DNA from: a virus
IMG/VR virus record: IMGVR_UViG_3300032238_000250
Coordinates: 1-26,954 of that record
Strand: one strand, 5' to 3'
DNA: 26,954 nucleotides
Every line of letters starts with the position of its first letter. Within the stretch, counting starts at the first letter, position 1. Shown here one piece after another: positions 5,494-23,235 of this stretch. The translations under genes were made by a program, and so were the position numbers. The notes beneath the pieces were generated by a model that searched no databases, was not told the DNA's origin, and saw only the letters and a list, made by a program, of their open reading frames with translations.

Positions 5494-8400
5494 ATGGCTC
5501 AAAATAATCAAGATGAATTTCCACTTCCTACTGGTTCTGAAAACCAAATAACTAGACGAACTGCTAGGCATCTTCCTAGTTTCTTTCGTACGGATTCTAA
5601 CAAGAAATTCTTAGGCGGTACATTAGATCCGTTAACTCAGCCAGGAAAATTAACTAGAATTAACTCATATGTTGGTCGTAGAGATATTCCAAATTATAAT
5701 TTTAGTGACAATTATATAGAAGAATCTACAAATACTAGACAGTATTATCAACTAGAACCATCATTCGTTTATGACGATACTGTTTCTGGTAAAGTTAAAT
5801 GGTATGCTGATTATGTTGATTATATGAACAGTTTAAAGTATTTTAATGTTTATACAGGAAACCATAGTAATTTAAACAAGAGTGAATCATATTCTTGGGA
5901 TCCTAATATTGATTGGGACAAGTTTGTAAACTACAGAGAATACTATTGGCTTCCTAACGGACCAGATCCAATAACTATTTACGGTGAGAATGAATCAATA
6001 GTTTCAACATATTCAGTAACTAGTCGTTTAGATAATGACAATTCTGTTTATATATTTTCTCCAAATGGTCTTACAGCCAATCCTCGTTTAACTCTTTACA
6101 GAGGTCAAACTTATAAATTTAGCATTAATACTAAAGGAAATCCATTTTGTATCAAATCTAGACCAGAGATAGGTGTAAGTTATTTTTATAATGTTGGTAT
6201 CAATCAACAGTTAATTGATACTGGAACTCTTGAATTTACTGTTCCATATGAAGCTCCAAGTGTACTTTATTATCTAAACAATAAAGATATTAATTCAGTT
6301 GGAATAATAGAAATTAAAGACATCAAAGAAGCAGCATTCCTTGATGTTGATCTAACGATATCTGGTAAAAAAACATTTACTAGTTCTAACGGTGTTGAAT
6401 TTATTAACGGACTTAAAATTAAATTTTCTGGTAATGTAGTTCCTGAAAAATATTCTAAAGGATACTGGTATGTAGAAGGTGTTGGGAGTAAGATTAAATT
6501 AATAAACACTGCTGATTTAAACACTCCTGTAACATATGGTACTACTGTAGAATCACCATTTGATGCGCAGCCATTTGACACATCACCTTGGGAAATTGCT
6601 GAGAATTATTCTGCAACTAAAGATTATATGGTTATTAATAGGGCATCAGTAGATCGAAATCCGTGGTCAAGAAATAATTGTTGGTTCCATATTAATGTAA
6701 TCGACACTACATCAAAAGCTAATAAACAAATTTCTTTATTTGATCAGAAACAACGAGCTATAAGACCAATTATTGAATTTTCTTCTAATATAAAGTTATT
6801 TCAAAACGGTTGGATTGCTAAACAGGATGTTGATCTCGTAGATACAAAAACAACAGATGTATTTTCAACTATTGAAGGTAGTACTGATTTTTGGATAGAT
6901 GAAGAAAAAATATATCCTGGATATCGTATTTTGTTTACAGCAGATACTGATAACTTAGTTGCTGGAAAAATTTTCAAAGTAGTTAAAATTTTTAATGCCA
7001 ACGAGAATAAGATGCAGATATCACTGCAGAGTGTTGATGACACAGAACCATTAGAAGGACAAGTTGTTTATGTTACAAAAGGAACAACTAATAAAGGAAA
7101 TTCTTACTATTTCCAAAATGGTGTTTGGTCTAAATCTCAAACAAAAACTAAAGTAAATCAACCACCGTTGTTTGATCTATTTGATGAAAATTATAATAGT
7201 TTTTCTGATATAACAGCTTATCCTTACAATAATTTTTCTGGTAATAAGATATTCAGTTATCAAATTGGAACAACTGGAAAAGATGATGATCAGTTAGGAT
7301 TTACGTTAGCTCATAGGGCAATTAACAATATTGGAGATATTGAATTTTCTTTTGATTTACAGAAGCAATCTTGGACGTTCCAGGAAAATAATATCTTAAA
7401 CACTGTGTATTCTTATACTGGATTTGTTAGAAAATATAACGATAATGCTAGTTTTTCTTACTCTAACGGATGGGTTCGTACCTATAAAGATTTAGAACAA
7501 CCCGTTGTGAGAATATTAAAAGTAGAGAGTGAAACAGATTTAGTTCCAATTGATGTATATGATGATAGTTCTAATTTAATTGGTTTATCAATAAGAGTCT
7601 ATTTTGCTAAAGAGAATGAAGTTCCTAAAAAAGTAGATCCTGCGACAATTTCATTTGAAGTTATACAAGGATACTATTATATAAAATTCTCTTCATTACT
7701 ACCTGTTAATTCTAAAGTTATATATAAGGTTAAATCTAGTGCTAGCAAAAATACCAGAGGATATTATGAAATACCTCACAACTGGCAAAATAACCCATTA
7801 AATGAAACTATAGATACATTTACATTTGGTGAAGTTTCAGATCATGTTAGTACTATTATAGATAACATATTACCTTTCAGTGGTAATTTTCCAGGAGTTA
7901 GTAACTTAGCTAACTTAGGACCAATATCTCAATATGGTCAAAGATTCTTACAACATGCTGGATCAATGCCTCTTGCTGCGTTTGTTCTAAATGACAAGCA
8001 TGCCAATATTGTAAAATCATTAAGATATATCGCTAAGAAATATACTGCTTTTAAGAAAGAATTTGTACGATTAGCAACTACAACAGCCGTTGACGGAACT
8101 ATTGCTGAAATAGTTGATTCTATATTAACTGATTATGGGTATTCAAAGTATGTTAATACTTTTGCATTTTATTATTCAGATATGGCCGCAGCAGGCGCAG
8201 CTTCTGTAAGAAATTATACTGTAGTTGATCCAAGGCTTCCAGTATTTGTTATCGATAGCATTTTTACACCAATGACTACTAGTAAAAGACAAATACTAGT
8301 TTACGTTAATGATGTTCAATTAATTTACGGAATTGATTATAATTTTGAAACTACAGATGCATTTGTTAAGATATTATTACCACTAACTGTTGGAGATAAG

Positions 8401-11400
8401 ATATTAATTAAAGATTATTCCAACACTGATGGTCGTTCATATATTCCTTATACCCCATCTAAACTTGGAATATTTCCAATTTATGTTCCTAGAATTTATA
8501 TTGACGATACGTTTGCTACACCAACTAAGGTCATAGAAGGACATGATGGTAGTATCACAGTAGCGTATAATGATTATCGTGATGAACTTATCCTTGAATT
8601 AGAAAAAAGAATTTTTAATTCTCGTAAGGTCGAATATGATCCAAGTATCTTTAATATTAATGATGTAATTGGCGGATATTATAGAAAAACTGATTTTTCT
8701 CCAATTGAAATTAATAACGTATTAATAGGAGATTTTCTAAAATGGAATTCTATAGCTGATTTAGATATTAGTAGCAATGAATATTACATTGAAGAAAACT
8801 CATTTACATTTAACTATAACAACTCTTTAGCACCAAATAATAGAGAAAATTTATATGGTTATTGGAGAGGCGTTTACAAATATTTTTATGATACTGATCG
8901 TCCACACACTTGTCCTTGGGAAATGCAAGGGTTTACTATTAAGCCTACTTGGTGGGACACAGTATATGGAGAAGCTCCATATACTAATGAAAATAAGATA
9001 ATGTGGGATAATATTGAAAAAGGACTAATTGCTGATCCGTCATATAGTAGGATAAATCTTAGATATGTTAGACCCGGATTAAGCACTTACATTCCTGTAG
9101 ATGCTGACGGTAATCTTCTTAGCCCACTAGACAGTAACTTAGCACAAAATTTTTCATTAATCAATGCTAAAAATGATTATACATTTGGTGATCAAGCACC
9201 AGTTGAAACTGCTTGGAGACGTTCTAGTGAATTCCCATATTCGGTCGTTGCCGCAATGTGCGTCTTGAGAGGAGCTGAATTTATTGGTAAAATGTGGGAT
9301 AGATTTACTATTAAACGAAATATAGCAGGTCAGATTTATTCTACAGTTTCGGGATTAAAAATACAACCTTCAAAATTAACATATCCAAATCAAGTAATTG
9401 GAAACATAAACGATACAACGGCTCCTGTTACAGTTACTTCCGGACTTGTAAATTTTATTGAAGAATATTTATTTGATGCCAAATATACAGACATAGATTC
9501 ATACAAAGAAACATTAAAATATTTAGATTCTAAATTGTCATATCGTATGGCAGGATTTACAAGTAAAGAACAAATAAAGATTTTACTTGACAGTCGCAGT
9601 CCAAACGCATCTGGTACAGTATTTTTACCACAAGAAAACTTTAAGATATTTTACAATAAAAGTACTCCTGTTGATACTGTTTCTTATAGTGGAGTTATTA
9701 TTGAAAAGATCGGAAGTTCTTATCCGCAATGGATTTCCGGACATCGTTATCATTCAGGCGAAAGAGTTTCATTCCAGGGAGAAGTATATCACTGCATCGC
9801 TACCCATACGAGTAATGCTAGTTCTTCCTCTACCGCGGTTCAACAGTTTAATGAAGATATTAATTATTGGAATAGAGAAACAATACCGAGAATTGGTTAC
9901 AAAGTTAGAGGATATGATTCTGAAAAAAACTATTTTGAAATATTTGGATATCGTAACAGTCAAAATGATCCAATTTTAAATGTTGGTGGAATTTCTGAAT
10001 CATACGTTGAATGGGTTGGAAATCAAGATCATTCTTTAGAAATTTTAACAGAAGCTCAAAAAGCAGTTATGATTTCTAAAAAGAAGTATTATACTAAAGG
10101 ACAAATAGCTAAAGTAGGCAATACTGGATATTACCGAGCTTTAATTGGTCATACTGCTTCAATTAACTTTAACGATGATATTTCAAAGTGGGTTAAATTA
10201 TCTAAGCTTCCAATCGTTGGAGGGGTTTCTGCGATACGTCGTTCTAGATTTGGAAAAATACCAATTAAAATTAATTACGGAACTATTTTTTCTACAGTAC
10301 AAGAAATAGTTGATTTCCTATTAGGTTATCAAAAGAGATTAGAATATAACGGATTTATCTTTGACGATTATAATAAAGATTTAGATGTTCCATTGACATG
10401 GTTAACAAGTGCTAAAGAATTTATGTTCTGGACTTTACAAAATTGGGCAGCTGGTTCTGTTATAACACTAAGTCCGTCTGCTAACAGAATAAATTTTGTT
10501 CCTCAAATAACTGCTTCAGTTGATAATACTGATACTGATTTTTATGATTATAGTATTTTTAAAGCTGACGGATCTCCTCTTAAAGCAGATTTAACTGATG
10601 TATATAGAGAAGGTGCTGGATTTGTTCTTAAACCATCAACTGAAGTTAATGATGGAATATTCCATATTAGAGCCAATTTAGTCTACAAAGAACATGTAAT
10701 CTTATTTGATAATGTTTCTATATTCAATGATATTCTATATGATAAAGTTCCAGGATATCGTCAAGGTAGATTAAAAATACTTGGATATAAGACAACAAAC
10801 TGGAATGGTAGTTTTACTAGTCCTGGATTTATGTATGACGCTGCCGAAATAAATGATTGGAAGCCAAATACAGATTATATGATTGGAGATATAGTTAAGT
10901 TTAAGAGCTACTATTTTACTGCTTTAGTAAAAGTATTAAGTAAAACTGAATTTGATTATACAAATTGGAAACAATTAACATCTCCACCAACTGCTGGCTT
11001 AATTCCTAATTTTGACTACAGAGTAGAGCAGTTTCGTGATTTCTATAGCCTAGATGCTAGCAGTTTTGATTCAACACAGGAGTCGTTAGCGCGACATCTC
11101 ATTGGTTATCAACCTAGACAATATCTTGCTAATATTATTAATGATGAAGTTTCTCAGTATAAGTTCTATCAGGGATTTATCAAGGAAAAAGGTACGCTCA
11201 ATAGTATAACTAAACTATTTGATGTTCTACGTGCTAGTGGATGGAGCAATATTGATGTTAAGGAAGAATGGGCATTTAAATTAGGTGAGTACGGTGCTAC
11301 TGATGCCTATACTGAAATAGAATTTTCGTTAGATGAAAAGAAATTTCTACATAATCCACAAAATATTAATCTAACACAAAACACTAAAGAATTTACAGAT

Positions 11401-14400
11401 CTTTCTATCTATAATATAATCAATAATGAAGTTTCTATTAAGCCTAGCAATTATAATAGCAATCCTTTTAAAACAGTTAAAATTGATACGACAGAAAATA
11501 ATTTTGGAATATTTAAGTATCAGGTAGCTGGATATGTTATGGATGAAGATGTTGATCATATTGTTATAAATGAATCAGCATTGTTAAATTATGATACATC
11601 ACTTTTTAAAGAAAAAGATAAGATATGGTTAGGTTATACATCAAATAATGATTGGAATGTTTATGAATATATTAATACTGATATAAAAATTACAGGATGG
11701 ACAGTATCTGATAATATTATTTCTTTAGCATGTAACGTCATACCTGATGTTAGTATTGATGATATAATAGTAATTTCAAATCTTGATTCAATTGATGGTT
11801 CTTACAAAGTACAACGTGTTTATAATAACATTATCGAAATCTATACATTTAATTCTACTATTTTTACAATACAGGATAATGTAACTTCTGGTGTAGTGCA
11901 TTTATTAAAATCAGCTAGATACTCATCATTAGATGCTGTGTCGGCAAATAGATATAACACTAAAAATATTAGAGGAGAACTTATCTGGGTTGATAGCGAT
12001 ACATCTGGTAAATGGTTAGTATTACAAAACCAAGATGCATTTACTGAATCAGAAGTACCAGCTCGATACTTAGTTGAAAGCCAACAATATGGGCATACAG
12101 TTAAAGTTAGTGCAAATGGTAATTGGATGTTTGTTACTTCCTTATATAATGGATTTGGTAAAGTTAATGTTTTTAATCGTCCATCAAATGTAATTAATTG
12201 GAATTTAATACAAACACTAACATTACCTGAAAGTTACATACATTGGCCATCTAATAATCCAACAGTGCCTCGTACTAATACAAAATTTGGAATAAGCCTT
12301 GATGCTACTGATGACGGATATGTAGTAGTTGTTGGAAGTACTGATATTTCTAAATTAAAAACATATTCAGCTTATGGTGTTAATGTTGGAAGTGAAGTTG
12401 GAGAGTATAATGATACTCTACTTAATCAAGGTGCAGTTTTTGTTTACGTTTATGATACAATTAATAGTCGATACGAATTAGATGCTGTTATAGGATCGTA
12501 TTCACCTGTTGCTAATGAAAAATTTGGTAGCAAAGTAAAGATATCTAATGATGGCACCAATCTCTGGCTATTTGTTTCTAGTAATAATCCTGGACCAAAC
12601 GTTGGACAAGTACAAATATTTAGGAAGACAGACGGACATTGGAAAGTTAACGAACAGCAATACTTAAACTTTGATAATATATTAGAGGGAGTATCAGTTC
12701 CTTCGTTAGCTTCGGGCGGACAATACGGCTATGGATTAGATTGTACATCAAGCGCATCGTTAGTTGCTGTTTCGGCTCCATTTACTGGTGCTGGTTCTGT
12801 TTATGTGTTTAAGAGATTTAATTATGAATTTTATCTAACTGAAGTCATTAATTCAACTACAATGAATACTGGATTAATTCCAAATACAGTGAATAATACA
12901 GTATATCTTTATGATAACGATTATTTTGGATATAGTCTTGCTATAACAGAAAGATCATTATTTGTATCCTGTCCAAATAACGACACTAAGGGATATAATG
13001 TTGGTTCAGTCTTTGTATTTTCAAAGATAGTTAACAGCATAACAACTAGTAATATCTATCAGCTAGAGCAGTTTATCTTGCCTCCTATAGTTAATACTAG
13101 TGAACAGTTTGGTACAGATCTATCAATTAATCCATCTAACAATGTATTGGCTATTTCATCAAGAGGTGGTAGTAGTATAATACATCTAACTTTTGACAAC
13201 TACTCAGATAGAATCTCATCATCAAGTTATGAGCTAGATCCATTCAGCACAAAGATTGAAGGAACTACTTTTGATGGAAACTCAACTGTTTACTATGACA
13301 AGACTCCATATACTGGTGCTGTTTATGTTTACAATAGATTTGATGATAAATTTATCTACGGAGACAGATTACGACCAGTTAACGATCTTGAATTAAACGA
13401 TAATTTTGGTCAATCAATATCAGTAGTTGATTCTACAATAGTTGTTGGAACACCAAACAGACATGTCAGTGGAAAAATGTATGGTACAGTCTTTACATTT
13501 GATTTTACAGAACCAAGTTGGAAGATTAAACAGTCACAAGACTCTGTAGTTGACATTTCTAAATTTAAAAAAGCATTTATCTATAATACTAAGAAAAATA
13601 CACTAATTGAGCATCTTGATTTTTATGATCCTGCTAAAGGTCGTATACCTACCATAGCCGAGCAAGAACTTAAGTATCAAACTTATTATGATCCTGCGAT
13701 ATATCAGTATGGTGTTCCAAGTGAAGTTGCGGTTGATGAGAGTATACCGTGGACTGATGAGCATGTTGGTGAATTATGGTGGGATTTATCTAAAGTAAAG
13801 TTCACTTGGTATGAACAGAGTGATTCAACATTTAGGAATAATAACTGGGGCCGTATATTTACAGGATGTACTATTGATATCTACGAATGGGTTGAAACTA
13901 CATATCTTCCAAGCAAGTGGGCTGAGTTAGCAGACACTGAAGCAGGAATCGCATTAGGAATTAGTGGTATACCTAAGGACATTGATAATTTTACTTGGAG
14001 TAGCAAATATAAGTATGATCCAATTAGTGGTAGCAAAACAACTTTATATTATTACTGGGTTAAAAGTAAAACAATAATTCCTAATATCTATGGTAGAAAA
14101 TTAAGTTCTGCTGATGTATCTAAACTAATATTAGATCCAAAATCAATGGGATATCATTTTGTATCCATAACAGATAAAAATACTCTATCATTAACAAACA
14201 TCGGAAGCAAGTTAGTAGATAGCGATGTATCTTTAAATCTCCAATTCTATGAAGTTGAAAATACAGAATTATTAACACATAGAGAATATGTATTAATAGC
14301 CAACAATGATCCTGATACAATAATTCCTCAATCTATCGAAACTAAATGGTTTGATAGTTTAATAGGGTATAACCGTCTAGGACAATCATTACCTGACATG

Positions 14401-17400
14401 AAACTTAATCAAAAGCAACGTTATGGTAATCTTAATAGCCCAAGACAATCATGGTTTATTAATAGATTTGAAGCATTGAAGCAATTATTTACATATGTAA
14501 ATTCTGTTCTAGCAAATCAGATTATTGTTGATAATGTTGATTTTTCTAAATTAAACAAGCATGATCCAGAACCAACATTAAATTCTGGAGAAATTGACGA
14601 AATTATTGATGTATTGTATGAGTTAAGATTTGTAGGAACTCTACGACTCAAGACAGCAAAGTTATCATTACAGGTTATTAATGGAAAGTTAGATAATGTG
14701 TTTATAGAAGACACCGGCTACGGATATGGTCGTAATAAAACTTATGCTATTAATGATCAAGGTACTGCTATTAGTTGGTATGGTCCAGAAGTTAATATCC
14801 TCGGAGTAGGAACTGGCGGATTTGTTCAAACTGTAATAGATGAACAAGGGCGTATTATAGAAGCAAAGATTATTAAATCTGGCATGAGATACGATTCTGA
14901 TACAAAAATAGTTGTAAGACCATATACTGTACTAGTTAGAAATGATGAAGAAGCTAATAATGCTTGGAGCGTACAGACATATAATCCATCAACTCAAGAA
15001 TGGAATAGAAGTAAAACTCAAGCATATGATGTACGACGTTATTGGTCTTATAAAGATTGGTATTTGACAGGATATGGACTATCAGCAGATGTTAGTTATC
15101 AGCTAGACAGAACAGTTGATCTTAATGGTCTTCAAGCTAAAGTTGGAGATATAATTAAAATTAATAATGTTGGTTACGAAAATTGGCTTCTATTAGAAAG
15201 AGTTGCTACTACTAACAGTTCGGATTTTACTAATGATTATCGAGTAGTAGGAAAGCAGAATGGCACTATTGAATTTTCTAATAAAATTTATAATCTAAAT
15301 CAACAATTAGGTTTTGATACTAATTTTAGTTTTGATTTAAATTTCTATGATCAAAGCGCAACTACAGAATTGCGAATAATATTAGAAACATTACGAGATG
15401 ACATATTAACTGATAAAAATAATAGGTTAAGAGAAGAATATATAAAAACATTCTTTAATAGTGTTTACTATGTTATGAGTGAGCAACTATATACTGATTG
15501 GTGTTTTAAAACTAGTTTCTTAAAAGTTAATCATAATGTTGGAACTCTTCGACAGAGAATAACTTTCCAAAGCGACGAAGTAGATAGCTATGAATCATTC
15601 TTAGACGAAGCTAAACCTTATAGAACTAAGATACGTGAATGGGTTAGTTCTTATCAGAGATTAGAAGAATCAGATTTAGGAATTACTGATTTTGATTTAC
15701 CTTCTTATTATAATAATGATCCTAAATCAGATAGGATCGAAAGGACTACTCTTCTATCTAGTAATATTAATACATATCCATGGAAGAGTTGGTTAGACTA
15801 TCATACATATAAGCTTAGTGATATAATATTAATGGATGGAGGAAAAAACTACACAACTACTCCTATAGTAATCATAACTGGAAATGGAACAGGTGCAAAA
15901 GCTTCTGCTTACATTGCCAACGGAAGTGTATACAAGATAGTTATAGATGATCCGGGTTACGGATATACTAGCACTCCTACGATTTTAATAAGCGGCGGCA
16001 ATGGTAATGTTGAAGGTAATAGAGCTAAGGCATATGCTAGAATTGGTAATAGCTTAGTTCGAACTAATCATATTGCTATGAAGTTTGATCGTTATACTAA
16101 TTCTTATGTAGTAAATGATTTTAAGCATACTGATTATTTTAGTGGAACGGGTAACCGATCTAAATTTAAACTAACATTTGCTCCTGAACCAATAAAGAAC
16201 AAATTTACAATATTTGTTGATAATATTGAATATTATGGATCTCAGTACGAAATATCAATTGTAGAAACAACACATGATACTTACACAGCATTAGAAGGAT
16301 ATATCGTATTTTCTCAAGCGCCAATTACAGGTATTAACAATATTGAAATAACCTATAACAAAAATATCAAACTGTATTCAGCGGCTGATAGAATTGATTA
16401 TGCTTATTCTCCAACTGCTGGACAATATGGTAAAGATCTTGCTCAGTTAATGACAGGTATTGATTACAGTGGAGTTACTGTTACTAGTATTGATTTTGAA
16501 GTAGGCGGAGGGTGGGATGTTCTCCCATGGGATGTAACTTCATGGGACAACGTACTTTCTAGTAATGATGATTTTATGGTTATATCTAATGGCACTACTA
16601 GAACCTTTACACTTCCATATGTTCCTGCTGTTGGAGAAACAATCAACATTTATCTAAACAATATTAGAATTGATGATAACGATAAACTAAATTCTTTTGT
16701 TGGAGACGGTATACATAATGTTATTACTTTACCAAGTGGTCCGTATGGAATACAGTTATCTAATGGTGATATGTTAAATTTCCGTAAGAGTACTAGTGAT
16801 GGATCTATATTGCCTTCAGATAGGAGTTTAGTTGATTCTCTAGTTTCAGGTGGAGCATTTAGTTATTCATCAGCAACTGGTATTAAACCTGAAGACATAA
16901 TTATTGACGGTGATGGATTCATTACAACAGATACAAGTCATGGTCCTGAAGAACTTGTACAAGGCCAAGTGTTTGATACTTTAGATATCAAAGTTTATCA
17001 TACACCATCTTCGGGTGGTCCTAATGTTTATGTTAACAATTATACAAGCGATGGATCTACTCTAACTTATAAAATTAATCAACTACCAGGAACAAGTGAT
17101 GGTATATTAGTATTGATTAATAATGTACCAGTTAAGTTTTCTATCAATTATATAGATAAAACCGTTACGTTTGTTGATACACCAGCAGCTGGATCTAAGA
17201 TCGTTATTATTATATTTGATATAGCAGGATATGATATATTAGATCGACAGACTTATATTGGTGATGGATCTACTATAGATTTCTCAACATCTGCGATATA
17301 TTCCAAAGATAATTTTACTGTTTTTATAACAGTTGATGGGATTGAAACAGGAACAAAAATTAAATCAGTAGCTGGGTATGTTACAGTTCAGTTTGCTACA

Positions 17401-18996
17401 GCTCCTGCTATTGATTCAGTTATTCAGATAGTAGTATTTTCTGGAACTATACAGAAATATAGTAAAGTTACAGATGAATATATTCCAATAGTTCCTGGTC
17501 AAAAAACATATACTCTATCTACAGTTCCAGCAAATCTTCCACCGTTATCAGCAAATGTTCTTGTTGTTATTGATGGTGAATATCTATCAGCTCCGGATTA
17601 TAAAAATTATTTGTATAATGGAAATGATTTAGAAATTCTTGATCCTAGATATATGCCATACATGTTAAGTCAGTCAGATATTAATATGTACATTAACGGA
17701 AAAATTTTAATTCCAACACAAGATTTCCTATTAGATTCTTCTCAAAATTCTATATCTTTAGCAACAAATGTAGCAGTTAATGGTGATGAAATTATTGTAG
17801 AAATTATCAAACAAAATGATTATCAGATAATAGATAATCAATTAGTTCTTAGTGGAAACTACAATATTATTAATAAAAATAATATAACAGTAACTACATT
17901 TACTAATCATGATATAGCAAAAATTAAAAGAACTAACAAAGGATTTACATTCACTACTGGATATGATTTACTTGGATACGATTCTAATAGATATGATTTA
18001 ATGACTGCTTCATTCAATACAAGTGGTATATTTGATCTTCCTAGAACAGTATCTAATACTAGTGGAGTATTTGTAATCTTAAGTCATAAGATATTAGCAC
18101 CAAATATAGATTATGTTGTTCTTGATAATAGAAGACAAATTAGAGTAACTCTGCCTGAGTTATTGTCAGGTCATGACTACATAGAAATTATTACAACAAA
18201 TGACCAAACCGTACAACCTAGTTTTGGATTTAAAATATTTAAAGACATGTTAAATAGAACATCTTATAAAGTATTAGATAAAACAAAGATAACAACACTT
18301 GCGCAAGATTTTAATATAAATGATACTAGTATAACAGTAGTTGACGGAACTGTTTTAACTACAGTTATTAATGATCAAACAACAGGAACTAAGCTTCCTG
18401 GAATTATCGAAATCAATGGTGAACGCATTGAATATTTTATAAAGAATGGAAATGTACTCAGTCAGCTACGTCGCGGAACTTTAGGTACTAGCGTTAGTAT
18501 TTCAATTCCAGCAGGAACTAAAGTTTATGATTTTGGATCTAAATTGACCATTCCGTATGTTGATACTGAAGTTAAAAGAACTGCCCTCGGTGATGGAACA
18601 AATCAGATATTTGATTTTGATTTTGTTCCTATAAAGACTTCTACTACTACATGGTATAGAGATACTATTCCTAGTAACTTTGGACAGTGCGATACAATTG
18701 AAGTATATGTTGCTGGACGTCGACTAGTCAAGACTCCTACATATGTTTATGATCAAAATCTAGGTCAAGACAGCTATCTAGGTGCTGGTGACAAACAGAT
18801 TGAAGCAGAATTTTCAGTAGATGGTGTTAGTAACTCAGTAAGATTAACAGTAGCACCAAATGCTGGAGAAATGGTAGTAATTATATCAAAACAAGGTAAA
18901 AAATGGCAAAAACCAAATGAAACTGGTCCGCTAGTTTATAGCACTACTGATATTGCTAGATTCTTGAACACTAAGCAGGTAGATTTACCTAAATAA
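5494..18996 (+). CDS. Giant virion structural protein (4500 aa), baseplate/tail associated
   Basis: One uninterrupted 4500-codon frame; GGAG at 5477-5480 lies 13 bases before the ATG. It matches the giant protein placed after gp6 in marine T4-like phages: LPSFFRTDSNKKF (27-39), IDWDKFVNYREYYWLPNGP (139-157), CPWEMQGFTIKPTWWDTVYG, FGKIPIKINYGTIF with EFMFWTLQNWAAGS, HLIGYQPRQYL, SEQLYTDWCFKTSF, and EAKPYRTKIRE near 3370. Modules in order: cupredoxin-like domain without ligands (196-274); beta-sandwich-like unit (917-1000); three CBM5/12-like modules (1410-1459, 1530-1569, 1787-1828); seven-blade FG-GAP-type propeller (~2195-2675); Gly/Tyr-rich repeats (~3060-3145, 3448-3506); repeated sandwich units (~3550-4250); a GIIEINGERIEY module (4261-4350); a last sandwich unit. 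No signal peptide or membrane segment was seen. It may stand in for T4 gp7 by position, which is inference. Virion role is well supported; exact role unknown. Confidence 0.88.
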   Translation: MAQNNQDEFPLPTGSENQITRRTARHLPSFFRTDSNKKFLGGTLDPLTQPGKLTRINSYVGRRDIPNYNFSDNYIEESTNTRQYYQLEPSFVYDDTVSGKVKWYADYVDYMNSLKYFNVYTGNHSNLNKSESYSWDPNIDWDKFVNYREYYWLPNGPDPITIYGENESIVSTYSVTSRLDNDNSVYIFSPNGLTANPRLTLYRGQTYKFSINTKGNPFCIKSRPEIGVSYFYNVGINQQLIDTGTLEFTVPYEAPSVLYYLNNKDINSVGIIEIKDIKEAAFLDVDLTISGKKTFTSSNGVEFINGLKIKFSGNVVPEKYSKGYWYVEGVGSKIKLINTADLNTPVTYGTTVESPFDAQPFDTSPWEIAENYSATKDYMVINRASVDRNPWSRNNCWFHINVIDTTSKANKQISLFDQKQRAIRPIIEFSSNIKLFQNGWIAKQDVDLVDTKTTDVFSTIEGSTDFWIDEEKIYPGYRILFTADTDNLVAGKIFKVVKIFNANENKMQISLQSVDDTEPLEGQVVYVTKGTTNKGNSYYFQNGVWSKSQTKTKVNQPPLFDLFDENYNSFSDITAYPYNNFSGNKIFSYQIGTTGKDDDQLGFTLAHRAINNIGDIEFSFDLQKQSWTFQENNILNTVYSYTGFVRKYNDNASFSYSNGWVRTYKDLEQPVVRILKVESETDLVPIDVYDDSSNLIGLSIRVYFAKENEVPKKVDPATISFEVIQGYYYIKFSSLLPVNSKVIYKVKSSASKNTRGYYEIPHNWQNNPLNETIDTFTFGEVSDHVSTIIDNILPFSGNFPGVSNLANLGPISQYGQRFLQHAGSMPLAAFVLNDKHANIVKSLRYIAKKYTAFKKEFVRLATTTAVDGTIAEIVDSILTDYGYSKYVNTFAFYYSDMAAAGAASVRNYTVVDPRLPVFVIDSIFTPMTTSKRQILVYVNDVQLIYGIDYNFETTDAFVKILLPLTVGDKILIKDYSNTDGRSYIPYTPSKLGIFPIYVPRIYIDDTFATPTKVIEGHDGSITVAYNDYRDELILELEKRIFNSRKVEYDPSIFNINDVIGGYYRKTDFSPIEINNVLIGDFLKWNSIADLDISSNEYYIEENSFTFNYNNSLAPNNRENLYGYWRGVYKYFYDTDRPHTCPWEMQGFTIKPTWWDTVYGEAPYTNENKIMWDNIEKGLIADPSYSRINLRYVRPGLSTYIPVDADGNLLSPLDSNLAQNFSLINAKNDYTFGDQAPVETAWRRSSEFPYSVVAAMCVLRGAEFIGKMWDRFTIKRNIAGQIYSTVSGLKIQPSKLTYPNQVIGNINDTTAPVTVTSGLVNFIEEYLFDAKYTDIDSYKETLKYLDSKLSYRMAGFTSKEQIKILLDSRSPNASGTVFLPQENFKIFYNKSTPVDTVSYSGVIIEKIGSSYPQWISGHRYHSGERVSFQGEVYHCIATHTSNASSSSTAVQQFNEDINYWNRETIPRIGYKVRGYDSEKNYFEIFGYRNSQNDPILNVGGISESYVEWVGNQDHSLEILTEAQKAVMISKKKYYTKGQIAKVGNTGYYRALIGHTASINFNDDISKWVKLSKLPIVGGVSAIRRSRFGKIPIKINYGTIFSTVQEIVDFLLGYQKRLEYNGFIFDDYNKDLDVPLTWLTSAKEFMFWTLQNWAAGSVITLSPSANRINFVPQITASVDNTDTDFYDYSIFKADGSPLKADLTDVYREGAGFVLKPSTEVNDGIFHIRANLVYKEHVILFDNVSIFNDILYDKVPGYRQGRLKILGYKTTNWNGSFTSPGFMYDAAEINDWKPNTDYMIGDIVKFKSYYFTALVKVLSKTEFDYTNWKQLTSPPTAGLIPNFDYRVEQFRDFYSLDASSFDSTQESLARHLIGYQPRQYLANIINDEVSQYKFYQGFIKEKGTLNSITKLFDVLRASGWSNIDVKEEWAFKLGEYGATDAYTEIEFSLDEKKFLHNPQNINLTQNTKEFTDLSIYNIINNEVSIKPSNYNSNPFKTVKIDTTENNFGIFKYQVAGYVMDEDVDHIVINESALLNYDTSLFKEKDKIWLGYTSNNDWNVYEYINTDIKITGWTVSDNIISLACNVIPDVSIDDIIVISNLDSIDGSYKVQRVYNNIIEIYTFNSTIFTIQDNVTSGVVHLLKSARYSSLDAVSANRYNTKNIRGELIWVDSDTSGKWLVLQNQDAFTESEVPARYLVESQQYGHTVKVSANGNWMFVTSLYNGFGKVNVFNRPSNVINWNLIQTLTLPESYIHWPSNNPTVPRTNTKFGISLDATDDGYVVVVGSTDISKLKTYSAYGVNVGSEVGEYNDTLLNQGAVFVYVYDTINSRYELDAVIGSYSPVANEKFGSKVKISNDGTNLWLFVSSNNPGPNVGQVQIFRKTDGHWKVNEQQYLNFDNILEGVSVPSLASGGQYGYGLDCTSSASLVAVSAPFTGAGSVYVFKRFNYEFYLTEVINSTTMNTGLIPNTVNNTVYLYDNDYFGYSLAITERSLFVSCPNNDTKGYNVGSVFVFSKIVNSITTSNIYQLEQFILPPIVNTSEQFGTDLSINPSNNVLAISSRGGSSIIHLTFDNYSDRISSSSYELDPFSTKIEGTTFDGNSTVYYDKTPYTGAVYVYNRFDDKFIYGDRLRPVNDLELNDNFGQSISVVDSTIVVGTPNRHVSGKMYGTVFTFDFTEPSWKIKQSQDSVVDISKFKKAFIYNTKKNTLIEHLDFYDPAKGRIPTIAEQELKYQTYYDPAIYQYGVPSEVAVDESIPWTDEHVGELWWDLSKVKFTWYEQSDSTFRNNNWGRIFTGCTIDIYEWVETTYLPSKWAELADTEAGIALGISGIPKDIDNFTWSSKYKYDPISGSKTTLYYYWVKSKTIIPNIYGRKLSSADVSKLILDPKSMGYHFVSITDKNTLSLTNIGSKLVDSDVSLNLQFYEVENTELLTHREYVLIANNDPDTIIPQSIETKWFDSLIGYNRLGQSLPDMKLNQKQRYGNLNSPRQSWFINRFEALKQLFTYVNSVLANQIIVDNVDFSKLNKHDPEPTLNSGEIDEIIDVLYELRFVGTLRLKTAKLSLQVINGKLDNVFIEDTGYGYGRNKTYAINDQGTAISWYGPEVNILGVGTGGFVQTVIDEQGRIIEAKIIKSGMRYDSDTKIVVRPYTVLVRNDEEANNAWSVQTYNPSTQEWNRSKTQAYDVRRYWSYKDWYLTGYGLSADVSYQLDRTVDLNGLQAKVGDIIKINNVGYENWLLLERVATTNSSDFTNDYRVVGKQNGTIEFSNKIYNLNQQLGFDTNFSFDLNFYDQSATTELRIILETLRDDILTDKNNRLREEYIKTFFNSVYYVMSEQLYTDWCFKTSFLKVNHNVGTLRQRITFQSDEVDSYESFLDEAKPYRTKIREWVSSYQRLEESDLGITDFDLPSYYNNDPKSDRIERTTLLSSNINTYPWKSWLDYHTYKLSDIILMDGGKNYTTTPIVIITGNGTGAKASAYIANGSVYKIVIDDPGYGYTSTPTILISGGNGNVEGNRAKAYARIGNSLVRTNHIAMKFDRYTNSYVVNDFKHTDYFSGTGNRSKFKLTFAPEPIKNKFTIFVDNIEYYGSQYEISIVETTHDTYTALEGYIVFSQAPITGINNIEITYNKNIKLYSAADRIDYAYSPTAGQYGKDLAQLMTGIDYSGVTVTSIDFEVGGGWDVLPWDVTSWDNVLSSNDDFMVISNGTTRTFTLPYVPAVGETINIYLNNIRIDDNDKLNSFVGDGIHNVITLPSGPYGIQLSNGDMLNFRKSTSDGSILPSDRSLVDSLVSGGAFSYSSATGIKPEDIIIDGDGFITTDTSHGPEELVQGQVFDTLDIKVYHTPSSGGPNVYVNNYTSDGSTLTYKINQLPGTSDGILVLINNVPVKFSINYIDKTVTFVDTPAAGSKIVIIIFDIAGYDILDRQTYIGDGSTIDFSTSAIYSKDNFTVFITVDGIETGTKIKSVAGYVTVQFATAPAIDSVIQIVVFSGTIQKYSKVTDEYIPIVPGQKTYTLSTVPANLPPLSANVLVVIDGEYLSAPDYKNYLYNGNDLEILDPRYMPYMLSQSDINMYINGKILIPTQDFLLDSSQNSISLATNVAVNGDEIIVEIIKQNDYQIIDNQLVLSGNYNIINKNNITVTTFTNHDIAKIKRTNKGFTFTTGYDLLGYDSNRYDLMTASFNTSGIFDLPRTVSNTSGVFVILSHKILAPNIDYVVLDNRRQIRVTLPELLSGHDYIEIITTNDQTVQPSFGFKIFKDMLNRTSYKVLDKTKITTLAQDFNINDTSITVVDGTVLTTVINDQTTGTKLPGIIEINGERIEYFIKNGNVLSQLRRGTLGTSVSISIPAGTKVYDFGSKLTIPYVDTEVKRTALGDGTNQIFDFDFVPIKTSTTTWYRDTIPSNFGQCDTIEVYVAGRRLVKTPTYVYDQNLGQDSYLGAGDKQIEAEFSVDGVSNSVRLTVAPNAGEMVVIISKQGKKWQKPNETGPLVYSTTDIARFLNTKQVDLPK
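6079..6315 (+). other. Cupredoxin-like domain with lost metal ligands (inside giant protein)
   Basis: Residues 196-274 follow the pattern L-x-L-x-RG-x-TY-x-F, G-x-PF, YNVGI, F-x-VP-x-APS-x-LYY, GIIEI, seen in cupredoxin-like domains of marine virus structural proteins. Where those usually have GHPF and a C-x-x-H-x-x-M-like end, this copy has GNPF and LNNKDIN. The copper ligands are absent, so it is probably only a structural fold. Confidence 0.5.
9721..9870 (+). other. CBM5/12-like module 1 (inside giant protein)
   Basis: Residues 1410-1459. The pattern is QW-x(4)-Y-x-x-GE-x-V-x-F-x-GEVYHC-x-A-x-HT and then Trp about 25 residues later (INYW). This is the usual signature of small chitin/cellulose-binding modules of the CBM5/12 type. 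Sugar binding is inferred, and the module could be purely structural. Confidence 0.5.
10081..10200 (+). other. CBM5/12-like module 2 (inside giant protein)
   Basis: Residues 1530-1569: YYTKGQIAKVGNTGYYRAL, then GHT, then SKWVKL. This has the same Y-x-x-G, YY-x-A, HT and W-x-x-L order as module 1, in shorter form. It leads directly into the conserved RRSRFGKIPIKINYG block. Confidence 0.45.
10852..10977 (+). other. CBM5/12-like module 3 (inside giant protein)
   Basis: Residues 1787-1828: DWKPNTDYMIGDIVKFKSYY, FTALVKV, then NWKQL. It has the W-x(4)-Y-x-x-GD-x-V-x-F-x-x-x-YY-x-A-x(n)-W pattern but lacks the His-Thr pair of modules 1 and 2. Confidence 0.45.
12070..13515 (+). other. Seven-blade FG-GAP-type beta-propeller (inside giant protein)
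   Basis: Seven repeats begin with an aromatic-Gly pair and a strand: YGHTVKV (residue 2199), FGISLDA (2265), FGSKVKI (2344), YGYGLDC (2411), FGYSLAI (2478), FGTDLSI (2539) and FGQSISV (2638). Most continue with a strand such as VAVSAP, LFVSCP or IVVGTP and then G-x-VYVF-like strands (GAGSVYVFKR, VGSVFVFSK, GAVYVYNR). Spacing is 61-99 residues, as in integrin-alpha-like FG-GAP propellers. Clear DxDxDG calcium loops are not kept in the blades. Confidence 0.7.
16141..18910 (+). repeat. C-terminal array of repeated beta-sandwich-like units (inside giant protein)
   Basis: Divergent units of about 70-100 residues recur. Each has a start like GDGST/GNRS/GTTR followed by x-F-x-L, a strand like F-x-V-x-V-DG/NN, and an end like V-x-F-x-x-AP-x-x-G-x-x-I-x-I. 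Unit starts include residues 3550, 3700, 3852, 3923, 4000 and 4366. One insert at 4261-4350 (PGIIEINGERIEY, LSQLRRGTLGT) is a different module common in phage structural proteins. The repeats are at protein level only; I saw no near-identical DNA copies. Confidence 0.6.
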
Positions 18997-19013
18997 ATAA
19001 GAGAGTGAAGATT

Positions 19014-19682
19014 ATGAAGACACCAGACAGCACACCTAAAAAAACCAAGGATCAGGATAAAGATATGAAGACACAGCCTAACGAAAAGGGACCTTTCCAT
19101 ATAGAAGGACATATTAAGATATTTGACCCAGAATCAGGACAGGTCTACATCAATAAGCGTAATGCTATCCATTATGAAAATATGAGTATAGCATTAGCAC
19201 AAAGTATCGCTAATTCGGGTCAAGGTACTATCTATCAGATGGTATTTGGAAATGGTGGTACGATTGTTGATCCAACAGGTGTTATTACGTATCTAACTCC
19301 AAACAGTGTCGGAACGAACAGTACTCTCTATAACGAAACATACAAGAAGATCATTGATGATCGTAATGTTGGTAATACTGATCCTACTCGTAATAAAATA
19401 GATACTGTTCATGTTACTGGTGCTACGTACACTGATATTATTATATCTTGTTTGCTTGATTATGGTGAACCAGCAGGACAAGAAGCATTTGATAATGCTA
19501 CTAATACTGGTGATTATGTGTTTGACGAATTAGGTCTTAGAGCATATGATCCGACAGCTGAAAATAATGAAGGAAAATTATTAACTCATGTAATGTTCCA
19601 CCCTGTTCAAAAAAGCTTAAACAGGTTGATACAGATAGATTATACAGTTCGCATACAGAGCTTATCGGGGTTTAATGGATAA
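19014..19682 (+). CDS. Putative virion structural protein (222 aa)
   Basis: The first ~30 residues are charged, Lys/Asp/Thr-rich and likely disordered, followed by a globular part. FHIEGHIKIFDPESGQVYINKRNAIHYENM, MVFGNGGT and the end THVMFHPVQKSLNRLIQIDYTVRI resemble small structural proteins found next to the fibres of marine T4-like phages. I cannot give it a T4 gene number. The frame also allows a GTG at 19005, but ATG 19014 is preferred because GAGAG at 19001-19005 gives normal spacing. Its stop overlaps the next start by one base (TAATG), so translation is probably coupled to the 772-aa fibre gene, and it may take part in fibre attachment. Confidence 0.75.
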   Translation: MKTPDSTPKKTKDQDKDMKTQPNEKGPFHIEGHIKIFDPESGQVYINKRNAIHYENMSIALAQSIANSGQGTIYQMVFGNGGTIVDPTGVITYLTPNSVGTNSTLYNETYKKIIDDRNVGNTDPTRNKIDTVHVTGATYTDIIISCLLDYGEPAGQEAFDNATNTGDYVFDELGLRAYDPTAENNEGKLLTHVMFHPVQKSLNRLIQIDYTVRIQSLSGFNG

Positions 19683-22000
19683 TGTCTTACACAGTTAATT
19701 TTACAGATCAAACAAATAACGGTAATATTACAGTTAATGATAATACTATCAACACTGCTACAAGTTTAGGATTTCCTGGAAGAAATCAAAAAGGATATGC
19801 GGTTACAGTTGCTGAAAATTTCTTACACCTATTAGAAAATTTTGCCAAGATGACTCCCCCTTCAAACCCAATTGAAGGACAGTTGTGGTATGATACTTCT
19901 CCAGGTATAGAATCTCTAAAGGTTTACGATGGCACTAACTGGAAATCATCTGGATCAGTAAAGAAGGGATCTAGTCAGCCAGATATTGGCGGTAGTATCC
20001 TAGGCGACATTTGGGTTGATACTGCTAATCAACAGTTATATCTTTATAATGGAGCTAACTGGATTCTAGTTGGACCAACATTTAGTAGTGGTCTTCAAAC
20101 TGGTGCTAAACCTGAAAAAATTAAAGACTCAACTACTGCGCAGACTGAACACATAGTTTTAATGAATTATGTTGACGATAGAGTAGTTTCTATATTAAGT
20201 AATTCGGAATTTACTCCTCAGTCTGGAATATCAGGTTTTGAGAATATCAAGGTAGGTGTAAACCTTAGTAGTAATTCTAATAAATTTTGGGGTGTCAGTG
20301 AGAAAGCAGAAAATCTTATCATCGGCGGCTCAATTATTCCTGCTGCTAACTTCCTTAGAGCAGATGTCCCTAATATAACTACTAAAATACTAACCGTTAA
20401 AAGTGATTCCGGATTAAATGTAGGTGGAGATTCACAGTTACAACTCCGTATAACTGAACAGACTGGAGTATTATATTATTCTACTCCAGGATCTAGATTT
20501 GATATAAGACTCAATGTTGGTTCAGGAACTCACGTTGAAACTACACTAATAAGTTTAGATGCTACTAGCGGACGTATTGGAATTGGACTAAATAATTTAG
20601 CTCCAGCAGAAACTTTATCAGTTAAAGGTACAGGTAGTTTTACTGAGCAAGTTAAAATTACAGATACTACTGATACTATCAATGTAGCAACGGGCGCACT
20701 AATAATCGACGGCGGAACTGTTATTAAAAAGAAATTGAGAGTTTCGGGAGAAATATCTGCTTCTTCTACTATTAATAGTTCAAACATACTTCCAATAACT
20801 AATAACACAGTTGATATTGGCTCAGTTGATTTAGTAACTCCATCTAATAATAAAATATATAGAAATGTCTACGCTACTACATTTAATGGATCGTTAATCG
20901 GAAATGTTACAGGTAGTGTAGTTGGTAGTGTTACAGGTACTGCAAGTAGTTTGATATCTAGTACTGTATTTAGAATGACTGGTGACGTAACCAGTTCTGG
21001 ATTTAGCTTTGATGGATCAGCAACACTTGTTTCATCCGGCGCATTTGTTACTGGTCAACAATATAAAATCACATCATTAGCAAGAATTGATCCAATCACT
21101 AAAGCTCCTATTAATCCTACAGATTTTACATTAATTGGTGCTTCTTCAAACACTATCGGATTAATTTTTACAGCAACCGGTGTTGGATTAGGAACTGGTA
21201 CTGCTACTACATCTACTGACAAAGTATTTACTACACAAATATCTCCAGAGTTTATAACTAATCAAAATCCTACTACAGTAACAGCAAATACTGACGAGAT
21301 AATAATTAATAGACCATTTGTTGAAGGTGGTGATCCTTCTGGTGTATATAAAACAACTAAAAAAGATTTTGTAAGTAATTTGCCTGTTGTACCTGTTGGA
21401 GCTATTTTTCCATTTGCTGGAGCAGCAATTCCTCCAGGATATTTACTATGTGATGGCAGTGAAAAATTAATTGGTGTATATCAAGATTTATATAATGTTA
21501 TTGGATACATATATACTCCAAATACTAATTCATTAGTTGGTTCAGGTACATTTAAAATTCCAGACCTAAGAGGAAGATTTCCTTTAGGTCTTGATAATAT
21601 GGACAATGGTGATAAGGTTCCAGACAAGACAGTTACTAATACTATAAGTCTTATTGATAGCGGTGGCGGTCCTGCTGGACGTGTTAATGCTTCAACAGCA
21701 AGCGTATTAGGTCAAGTCGCAGGACAAGAACAGGTTACTCTTGATATTACTCAGATGCCAGATCATAAACATGATTTAAGCGGGTCAACTGGTGGTCAGT
21801 ATTACGCAATTAACAATACATCTGTAGTTCCAACTGACGAAGATGCGTTCTTAGGAAAAGGCCCAACTGGTGCTAATCAAAGCCAATATATATCAACTAC
21901 TGGTAATATTAAAACAAATCAACCAATTGGTAATGCTGTAAGTTTAATGAATCCATATATGGCTATTAACTACATAATCTATTCAGGGGTAATTATCTAA
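19682..22000 (+). CDS. Tail fibre protein with C-terminal tail-collar domain (fibre paralogue 1)
   Basis: A 772-aa protein. Residues ~1-200 form a module shared with the next two genes: ENFLHLLENFAKMTPPSNPI, GQLWYDT, LKVYDG, GDIWVDT, LYLYNGANWILVGP. The middle has fibre-type features: an IGIG/LSVKGTGSF segment and a short GNVTGSVVGSVTGTASS repeat (~405-425). A FTLIGASSNTIGLIFTATG module common in marine phage virion proteins lies at ~458-512. From residue 571, PVGAIFPFAGAAIPPGYLLC, then FKIPDLRGRFPLGLDN, is a tail-collar domain as in T4 gp12. The end (ITQMPDHKHDLSG, then NPYMAINYIIYSG) fits a collar/receptor-tip family. It probably contacts the cell surface. A GGGG-containing site lies shortly before the ATG. 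Confidence 0.88.
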   Translation: MSYTVNFTDQTNNGNITVNDNTINTATSLGFPGRNQKGYAVTVAENFLHLLENFAKMTPPSNPIEGQLWYDTSPGIESLKVYDGTNWKSSGSVKKGSSQPDIGGSILGDIWVDTANQQLYLYNGANWILVGPTFSSGLQTGAKPEKIKDSTTAQTEHIVLMNYVDDRVVSILSNSEFTPQSGISGFENIKVGVNLSSNSNKFWGVSEKAENLIIGGSIIPAANFLRADVPNITTKILTVKSDSGLNVGGDSQLQLRITEQTGVLYYSTPGSRFDIRLNVGSGTHVETTLISLDATSGRIGIGLNNLAPAETLSVKGTGSFTEQVKITDTTDTINVATGALIIDGGTVIKKKLRVSGEISASSTINSSNILPITNNTVDIGSVDLVTPSNNKIYRNVYATTFNGSLIGNVTGSVVGSVTGTASSLISSTVFRMTGDVTSSGFSFDGSATLVSSGAFVTGQQYKITSLARIDPITKAPINPTDFTLIGASSNTIGLIFTATGVGLGTGTATTSTDKVFTTQISPEFITNQNPTTVTANTDEIIINRPFVEGGDPSGVYKTTKKDFVSNLPVVPVGAIFPFAGAAIPPGYLLCDGSEKLIGVYQDLYNVIGYIYTPNTNSLVGSGTFKIPDLRGRFPLGLDNMDNGDKVPDKTVTNTISLIDSGGGPAGRVNASTASVLGQVAGQEQVTLDITQMPDHKHDLSGSTGGQYYAINNTSVVPTDEDAFLGKGPTGANQSQYISTTGNIKTNQPIGNAVSLMNPYMAINYIIYSGVII

Positions 22001-23199
22001 TGACATATACTATTAATAAATCCGATGGAACAAAATTAGTTGATATTCTAGATGGTACAATTGATAATACTACTGATCTTAAATTAATTGGAAAAAATTC
22101 TACAACATTTGGGGAATCTCTAAATGAAGATCTTGTACATCTCTTAGAAAATTTTTCTAACTCTTTACCTCCAGGTAAACCAATAACAGGACAGTTATGG
22201 TATAATACAGCTGAATCGAGATTACAAGTTTATACTGGAACTACCAACGGATGGAGAGCAACTGGAGCACCAGTTGTTAGCCAAGAAGAACCTACTAATT
22301 TTATAACTGGTGATTTTTGGATTAATAGTAAAGACAGACAACTATATTTCTTTGATGGTTCAGCTCTAACATTAGCAGGACCAATATGGTCACATGGCCA
22401 AGGTAGAACTGGCTTTGTTGCTGAAACTCTTTATGACAGTTTTGGTAATTCTAAACCAACATTACAACTATTTGTTAATGACTCTCTTCTTGGAATTTAT
22501 TCTTCGTCAGAATTTGATCCAGTTCCAGCTATTACTGGATTTACTACTATAGTAAAAGGATATACTTCGAGTTCAGCAGTTTCAAACTTGTTTAATATAA
22601 CAGTTTCTAATGCTCAACAATTGGGAGGATTAAATGCTGCGAGTTATTTGGTAAGAGATAGCAGTAACGGAAATGTTGGATCTACAATGAGTGTTCCTCT
22701 TTCAATCGCTTCTAATAATGGATTAACACTTGGATCTACATCTAATGTTAAAATTAAACTTTCTGGATTTGCCTTACAGATAGAAAATTCTAGACAAAAC
22801 GGCGATGTTTCAATTAGAACTACTAATGCTGGTGGTACGAATTCTAGCATTTATATTAATGCTAGTGCTGGACATGTTGGTATATTAACAGATAATCCTC
22901 AACAGGTACTTGATGTTAACGGTAATACTAGGATCAGAGGAGACTTTGAAGTTAACGGTAGAACATTAACAAAACCATTTGTACTCACACTAATTGATAA
23001 TGATATACTCACTAACACAAATGCTAAAACAATTTTAATATTAAACGACATTGCTGATACTTCACTTTATTTAGATGGGCAAGGAGCATTTGTTCATTAT
23101 CAGCACATCAATGGAGCAGTTATTACTAGATATAATAAGAAATTTGTTATAACAAATGGCGAATGGACCTTTGAGACAGATTTAAGTAGTAGTGTTTGA
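22000..23199 (+). CDS. Tail fibre-like protein (fibre paralogue 2)
   Basis: A 399-aa paralogue of its two neighbours. Matching landmarks are NEDLVHLLENFSN, GKPITGQLWYNT, LQVYTG, GDFWINS, LYFFDG, LTLAGP and SSSEFDPVPAITGF (residues ~40-185). A middle module (QQLGGLNAASYLVRD, GLTLGS, GHVGILTDNPQQVLDVNGNTRI) corresponds to the middle of paralogue 1. The end of ~80 residues is short and has neither a collar nor an ADLAEKY module, and I do not recognise it. The start overlaps the upstream stop by one base (TAATG), with AGGGG upstream. It may be a shorter fibre segment or partner subunit of the other two. Confidence 0.8.
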   Translation: MTYTINKSDGTKLVDILDGTIDNTTDLKLIGKNSTTFGESLNEDLVHLLENFSNSLPPGKPITGQLWYNTAESRLQVYTGTTNGWRATGAPVVSQEEPTNFITGDFWINSKDRQLYFFDGSALTLAGPIWSHGQGRTGFVAETLYDSFGNSKPTLQLFVNDSLLGIYSSSEFDPVPAITGFTTIVKGYTSSSAVSNLFNITVSNAQQLGGLNAASYLVRDSSNGNVGSTMSVPLSIASNNGLTLGSTSNVKIKLSGFALQIENSRQNGDVSIRTTNAGGTNSSIYINASAGHVGILTDNPQQVLDVNGNTRIRGDFEVNGRTLTKPFVLTLIDNDILTNTNAKTILILNDIADTSLYLDGQGAFVHYQHINGAVITRYNKKFVITNGEWTFETDLSSSV

Positions 23200-23205
23200 T
23201 AAATA
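23198..23205 (+). promoter_or_regulatory. Candidate T4-type late promoter box upstream of fibre paralogue 3
   Basis: GATAAATA overlaps the stop of the upstream gene and differs from TATAAATA by one base. A start near 23211 would leave a leader of about 25 bases that keeps the AGGAG site at 23223-23227. It is the best-placed of the three boxes seen. Chance matches are common in AT-rich DNA. Confidence 0.4.
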
Positions 23206-23235
23206 GCTTATAGACATGATTTAGGAGCCAATAGT

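Follow-up and report, generated by a model that had tools for sequence, protein, structure and literature searches.

T4-like jumbo phages carry a known and widespread family of giant virion proteins in their baseplate region. The protein of 4500 amino acids encoded by the stretch of viral DNA analysed here (26,954 b, ~31% GC; hereafter the window) is an ordinary member of this family. Although the gene is ordinary within it, the family itself is understudied. Few virion proteins of T4-like jumbo phages are larger than its members, which have no solved structure and sit in the place of gp7. We consider it probable that the giant is a wedge protein in the gp7 position, with a spine on the gp25-gp6 core and with added modules that are peripheral and dock fibres.

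An uninterrupted giant gene behind gp25 and gp6

The gene (5494-18996, + strand) starts with ATG and runs through 4500 codons as a single ORF without internal stop, as the original prediction had read it. Its product is 4.4 times as long as T4 gp7 (1032 aa), in agreement with the predicted length of about four gp7 proteins. With a stop frequency of ~0.078 per random codon, estimated from the GC content, the chance probability of such an open frame is ~e^-365. The frame is kept in relatives with roughly 73-78% protein identity to the window giant, and in none of the 43 other complete environmental relatives (4437-5343 aa) is it interrupted. Since these relatives come from separate contigs, an origin of the ORF by sequencing or assembly fusion was rejected. 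Compared with three relatives (L013, L015, L016), Ka is ~0.17-0.20 and Ks ~1.1-1.2, and Ka stays far below Ks in each 500-codon block. Purifying selection acts along the whole length of the giant gene.

Concerning the genes around it, the + strand of the window carries, in this order, a partial hub-like gene, gp25, gp6, the giant, a 225-aa gene, three paralogous fibre genes and three further genes (Table 1). The gp6 gene (1989-5474) lies immediately 5' of the giant, which begins at 5494, and its product aligns with T4 gp6 over 311 columns (hhalign E 3.7e-05). The same adjacency is found in all testable environmental contigs (73/73) and in PA5oct, Atu_ph07, Phosso, RaK2, XaC1, Vibrio 2.275.O, CBB, 121Q, RAS14 and XacN1. 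SCTP-2 is the exception, its gp6 homologue being located ~90 kb from the giant. Upstream of the SCTP-2 giant, where gp6 stands elsewhere, a 3096-aa propeller-repeat protein (PHROG 8401) is encoded (L005, Salicola phage SCTP-2, 4624-13914).

The gene of the 225-aa protein follows the giant in 28 of 30 environmental contigs, and its homologues have the same place in PA5oct, Atu_ph07, Phosso, SCTP-2 and Vibrio 2.275.O. Profile-profile comparison of this protein with T4 gp8, gp9, gp11 and gp53 gave no match. The N-terminal domains of the three fibre proteins are 31-33% identical to each other, and Atu_ph07, Phosso and PA5oct have fibre genes with this domain at the corresponding position. Near the end of the window, a partial ORF of 277 aa (26123-26953) looks glycosyltransferase-like by eye (VIDTDVLIKND), with no convincing match in Pfam or NCBIfam.

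The original prediction proposed a single virion-type gene after gp6 and suggested virion mass spectrometry as a check. Position and homologues bear this out, since members of the family have already been reported from virions. The record of PA5oct gp355 carries an ESI-MS/MS note. CBB_236 (3340 aa) was detected in the virion with 21 peptides (PMC5259590). In phAPEC6, gp245 (381.88 kDa) was detected with 17 peptides, and its neighbour in the table is gp244, a 131-kDa wedge protein (PMC7247149).

Table 1. Genes of the window, and modules and spine segments of the giant protein (residue numbers refer to the giant)
Feature	Position	Strand	Support or remark
gp25-like baseplate wedge protein, 143 aa	1505..1936	+	PHROG 261, E 1.3e-14; Pfam GPW_gp25 4e-06, just under cut-off
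gp6-like baseplate wedge protein, 1161 aa	1989..5474	+	PHROG 10646, E 8.2e-289; PHROG 219 (T4 gp6 family), 2.1e-21
Giant virion protein, 4500 aa, ~500 kDa	5494..18996	+	ORF; PHROG 10938, E 1.7e-295
Residues 166-285, module read as degenerate cupredoxin	5989..6348	+	44/44 environmental relatives, 0/7 isolates
Residues 902-977, beta-sandwich, fold of TSP4 XD2 / T7 gp17 N-terminal / T4 gp6 171-275	8197..8424	+	AlphaFold model and VIA-align
Residues 990-1400, conserved spine, many invariant Trp, Pro, Gly	8461..9693	+	alignments
Residues 1408-1462, CBM5/12-like module 1 (optional)	9715..9879	+	Pfam CBM_5_12; structure match to chitinase CBMs
Residues 1500-1570, CBM5/12-like module 2	9991..10203	+	profile cross-match
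Residues 1784-1832, CBM-like module 3, resembles Milano baseplate / 7-7-1 tail fibre module	10843..10989	+	VIA-align Z 8.3, 1.2 A, 45 residues
Residues 1889-1916, spine motif, KGT core resembling gp7 signature FYSTKGIEASYKFLFKVLY	11158..11241	+	profile, E ~0.02
Residues 2200-2680, FG-GAP beta-propeller repeats, variable insert	12091..13533	+	Pfam FG-GAP_2; self-similar units
Residues 2700-3000, conserved spine, C-terminal block	13591..14493	+	alignment; model
Residues 3055-3139, Gly/Tyr repeat a	14656..14910	+	profile matches
Residues 3160-3400, conserved, partly helical spine, motif EAKPYRTKIRE	14971..15693	+	alignment; model
Residues 3440-3522, Gly/Tyr repeat b	15811..16059	+	profile matches
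Residues 3545-4470, array of ~seven beta-sandwich units	16126..18903	+	some unit profiles also find the 902-977 domain
225-aa protein downstream of the giant	19005..19682	+	PHROG 11259
Three paralogous fibre genes, 772, 399 and 507 aa, common N-terminal domain	19682..24759	+	first: tail-collar domain near C-terminus

Family members, spine and inserted modules

The giant matches one PHROG, 10938 ('virion structural protein', 3324 positions), in four stretches (E 1.7e-295), and has no match in NCBIfam. Named members of this PHROG are RaK2 ORF070, 121Q gp582, CBB_236, PA5oct gp355, Atu_ph07 gp180 and Phosso 294. With residues 1-1500 as query, tblastn found relatives in the PA5oct group (PA5oct, 3857 aa), Atu_ph07 (4449 aa), Phosso (4555 aa), SCTP-2 (3807 aa), RaK2-like phages (RaK2, 3326 aa), XaC1 (3332 aa), Vibrio 2.275.O (3771 aa), RAS14 (3138 aa) and XacN1 (3313 aa) and, more weakly, in some cyanophage records. 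Altogether, ~60 sequenced phage records hold family members, and an alignment-based scan revealed at least 596 environmental viral contigs with relatives. Megablast of 25 kb against phages gave no match, and single-sequence scans of viral contigs with the Vibrio 2.275.O and Atu_ph07 homologues yielded nothing new. The giant was found in all ten jumbo genomes scanned and is absent from T4. A 4455-aa 'structural protein' of Sinorhizobium phage AP-J-162 is listed beside two baseplate wedge proteins (PMC11242549); this protein, ORF58, probably also belongs to the family. In Klebsiella phage K64-1 (NC_027399.1), the annotation overlays the giant gene with about ten short hypothetical proteins.

The whole ORF is present in 38 of the 80 environmental relatives retrieved from the at least 596 (4437-5343 aa), and five further complete close relatives measure 4510-5139 aa. 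The window copy is among the shorter ones in its clade. By the original prediction's own standard, a length and module order common to all close relatives would make the giant ordinary. This is essentially the case, the same modules occurring in the same order in 43/43 other complete environmental relatives. The mosaic as such was correctly recognised: three CBM-like copies, a propeller, two Gly/Tyr repeats and a C-terminal array of beta-sandwich units were found by Pfam (CBM5/12, 5.6e-07; FG-GAP propeller repeats, 2.4e-07) and by profiles. Only its combination is not special to the window.

When 42 sequences are aligned, almost every part of the window protein has counterparts in the near clade, the clear exception being the first CBM (1401-1450, ~22% occupancy). 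With the same exception, the modules score in 44/44 complete environmental sequences (window copy and 43 others), a figure that is partly so by construction, since the scored relatives were themselves in the alignments behind the module profiles. Alignment occupancy and Pfam give support independent of these profiles.

The spine consists of shared blocks near residues 1-160, 380-890, 990-1400, 1600-1780, 1845-1940, 2700-3000 and 3160-3400. Its order is never violated in the 44 environmental and seven isolate sequences, all of them single chains of at least 3100 aa. The seven isolates share the spine without the 166-285 module, the propeller and several sandwich units. Because the spine is common to isolates that lack these modules, the giant grew by insertion on the spine, the shortest member already exceeding 3100 aa. 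The PHROG 10938 giants of jumbo phages have a spine collinear with that of the window giant (24-29% identity) and the same position after gp6, and several are virion-confirmed; compared to them, the window clade has in addition the 166-285 module, the propeller and most C-terminal sandwich units. A Pfam scan of the C-terminal spine in 50 members gave scattered chance matches only.

Residues 166-285 had been interpreted as a degenerate cupredoxin. A conserved module does exist there (44/44), and none of the relatives shows a copper-ligand pattern, but the cupredoxin fold itself was confirmed by no independent tool. Several relatives (L104, L065, L100 and others) contain an extra CBM-like insertion within this module, at the part aligned to window residues 213-276.

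AlphaFold models of residues 770-1969 (mean pLDDT 76.5) and 2680-3460 (mean pLDDT 79.8) are of only moderate confidence. In the first model, residues 902-977 align with 7rfv (VIA-align Z 8.5, 2.0 A over 64 residues) and with T4 gp6 171-275 (5iv5_A, Z 5.8; chain A is taken as gp6 because of its length of 658 residues). The model further contains a CBM at ~1409-1467 and a CBM-like fold at ~1783-1830 that resembles a Milano baseplate protein. Among predicted viral structures, the best matches are apparent homologues from uncultured phages and Atu_ph07. With the C-terminal block, Foldseek returned no match with E <0.001, and the best VIA-align Z was only 3.5. Sequence search of solved structures found CBM5/12 domains only, weakly, and no family member in the PDB. 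Neither modelled block gave a gp7-like match in the PDB, in searches that are weak for long multi-domain models and with VIA-align lists that do not hold T4 gp7, so that its absence there says nothing on a difference in fold.

XD2/XD3 domains of CBA120 TSP4 and T4 gp10 dock other trimers (PMC8825819). The fold of residues 902-977 is the point of likeness to the giant; TSP4 and gp10 are trimeric fibre or pin proteins, and the likeness is at fold level only. By analogy, the sandwich array may act as docking sites.

T4 gp7 and the giants of cyanophages

Whole genomes of ten jumbo isolates with the giant were searched for the gp6, gp7, gp8 and gp11 families, with T4 as positive control. The gp6 family is present in 11/11 genomes, and gp7, gp8 and gp11 were detected in T4 only; the giant and these three families are thus complementary in distribution. 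Besides T4, two PA5oct genes match the gp10 family over parts of their length and Vibrio 2.275.O gives a marginal match; the gp10-like C-terminus of PA5oct belongs to a gene other than the giant. The predicted lack of gp7-gp11 homologues is supported for gp7, gp8 and gp11 in the ten isolate genomes. Another gp7-type family, Tail_P2_I, gave nothing over the cut-off in the ten jumbo genomes, in a weak test that missed T4 too.

Profile-profile comparison of 15 pieces of the giant with T4 gp6-gp12 and gp53 gave no match; the control, window gp6 against T4 gp6, worked. The proposal that the giant had absorbed several T4 wedge proteins finds hints at fold level only (the XD2-like sandwich). The same comparison bears on a polyprotein that is cut into several virion proteins. 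Sheer size and the reported MS coverage of homologues (<8%) are compatible with such cleavage, but none of the pieces can be equated with a known T4 protein, the modules keep a fixed order and no processing signal was seen, and we consider it very improbable.

T4 gp7, the baseplate wedge initiator (PHROG 964), has the same gene position as the giant, after gp6 and before the outer wedge and fibre genes, and the two are mutually exclusive in distribution. They differ in length (1032 versus 4500 aa) and have no significant sequence similarity; a KGT motif is possibly common to both. No gp7 homologue was found in the ten jumbo genomes, and gp7 may be either hidden in the giant or replaced. The conserved motif FYQGFIKEKGTLNSITKLFDVL (within 1889-1916) has its KGT core in register with the gp7 signature FYSTKGIEASYKFLFKVL. 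It is near-invariant and the top-ranking site of the giant against a gp7 and cyanophage profile, at E ~0.02 and with other sites nearly equal. This resemblance is suggestive, not significant, and not evidence by itself.

Giants follow gp6 in cyanophages as well (S-CAM22, 6273 aa; P-RSM6, 8573 aa). They have the gp25-gp6-giant gene order and the Gly/Tyr repeat modules in common with the window giant, but do not share its spine, are longer and carry a gp7 signature. Profile pieces of the window giant matched them in the Gly/Tyr repeats only (3055-3140, 3440-3522), the spine remaining unmatched, and PHROG 10938 is absent from the genomes of S-CAM22, P-RSM6 and S-H9-1. The original prediction saw in the window giant motifs of the giant after gp6 in marine T4-like phages; the closest counterparts, however, are not there, and the real relatives are in jumbo phages. 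The signature of the cyanophage giants is a 30-residue match to T4 gp7 (FYSTKG...LFKLLYGE; hhalign E 3.8e-07, 50% identity) and suggests that they are enlarged gp7 proteins, a statement that we did not find in the literature examined. In S-CAM22, another gene is annotated as gp7, despite the gp7 signature in its giant.

It is possible, though short of probable, that the giant of the jumbo phages is likewise a highly diverged and enlarged true homologue of T4 gp7. Besides the signature in the cyanophage giants, its place after gp6, the mutual exclusion with gp7 and the first rank and register of the KGT motif fit such a descent. The KGT match, however, is at noise level, no other part of gp7 was found in the giant, and nothing detectable is common to its spine and the cyanophage giants.

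The strong form of the absorption idea regards the giant as a non-homologous replacement of gp7 and parts of gp8-gp11, invented separately in the jumbo lineage, and seems to us rather unlikely. It can draw on the failure to detect gp7, gp8 and gp11 in ten genomes, on the large unshared spine and on the docking-type sandwich modules. At such distance, however, missing sequence similarity is weak evidence, the gp6 homologue being detectable only in parts, and separate fibre genes are still present downstream. That T4-like jumbo phages as a class build the outer half of the wedge from one giant chain not descended from gp7, in place of gp7, gp8 and gp11, appears unlikely. Were it true, there would be T4-like contractile phages without a gp6-gp7 wedge core.

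Proposed place in the wedge

Contractile systems share a heterotrimer plan, with (gp6)2-gp7 and (TssF)2-TssG (PMC6300606). In the arrangement that we favour, the giant would take the gp7 position in the wedge, probably with one chain per wedge, and the spine common to all members would lie against gp6 and gp25. Its inserts (CBM-like, propeller, Gly/Tyr and beta-sandwich) would extend outwards as spacers and docking sites for the 225-aa protein and the paralogous fibres, and the giant might relay the signal for contraction from these fibres to the inner part of the wedge.

The inserts may also be viewed differently. As CBM5/12 modules and FG-GAP repeats are present, and the modules vary where the spine does not, the giant could lie outside the wedge proper, as a large peripheral decoration or adhesion protein whose CBM and propeller modules bind carbohydrate near the baseplate. 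We regard this as improbable. CBM-like modules also occur as building blocks in the baseplates, fibres and capsids of phages, the spine is kept in every member and tied to gp6, and there is no other known occupant of the gp7 place.

The wedge reading is supported by the family, the adjacency to gp6, the complementary distribution with gp7, gp8 and gp11, the virion MS of homologues and the XD2-like fold. Speaking against it are the lack of a gp7 match by profile or fold, the insignificance of the KGT motif, the broken adjacency in SCTP-2 and the category 'head and packaging', under which PHROG 10938 is filed in the PHROG database. Baseplate wedge genes adjoin the giant in every examined genome but SCTP-2, and this locus argues against the head-and-packaging filing.
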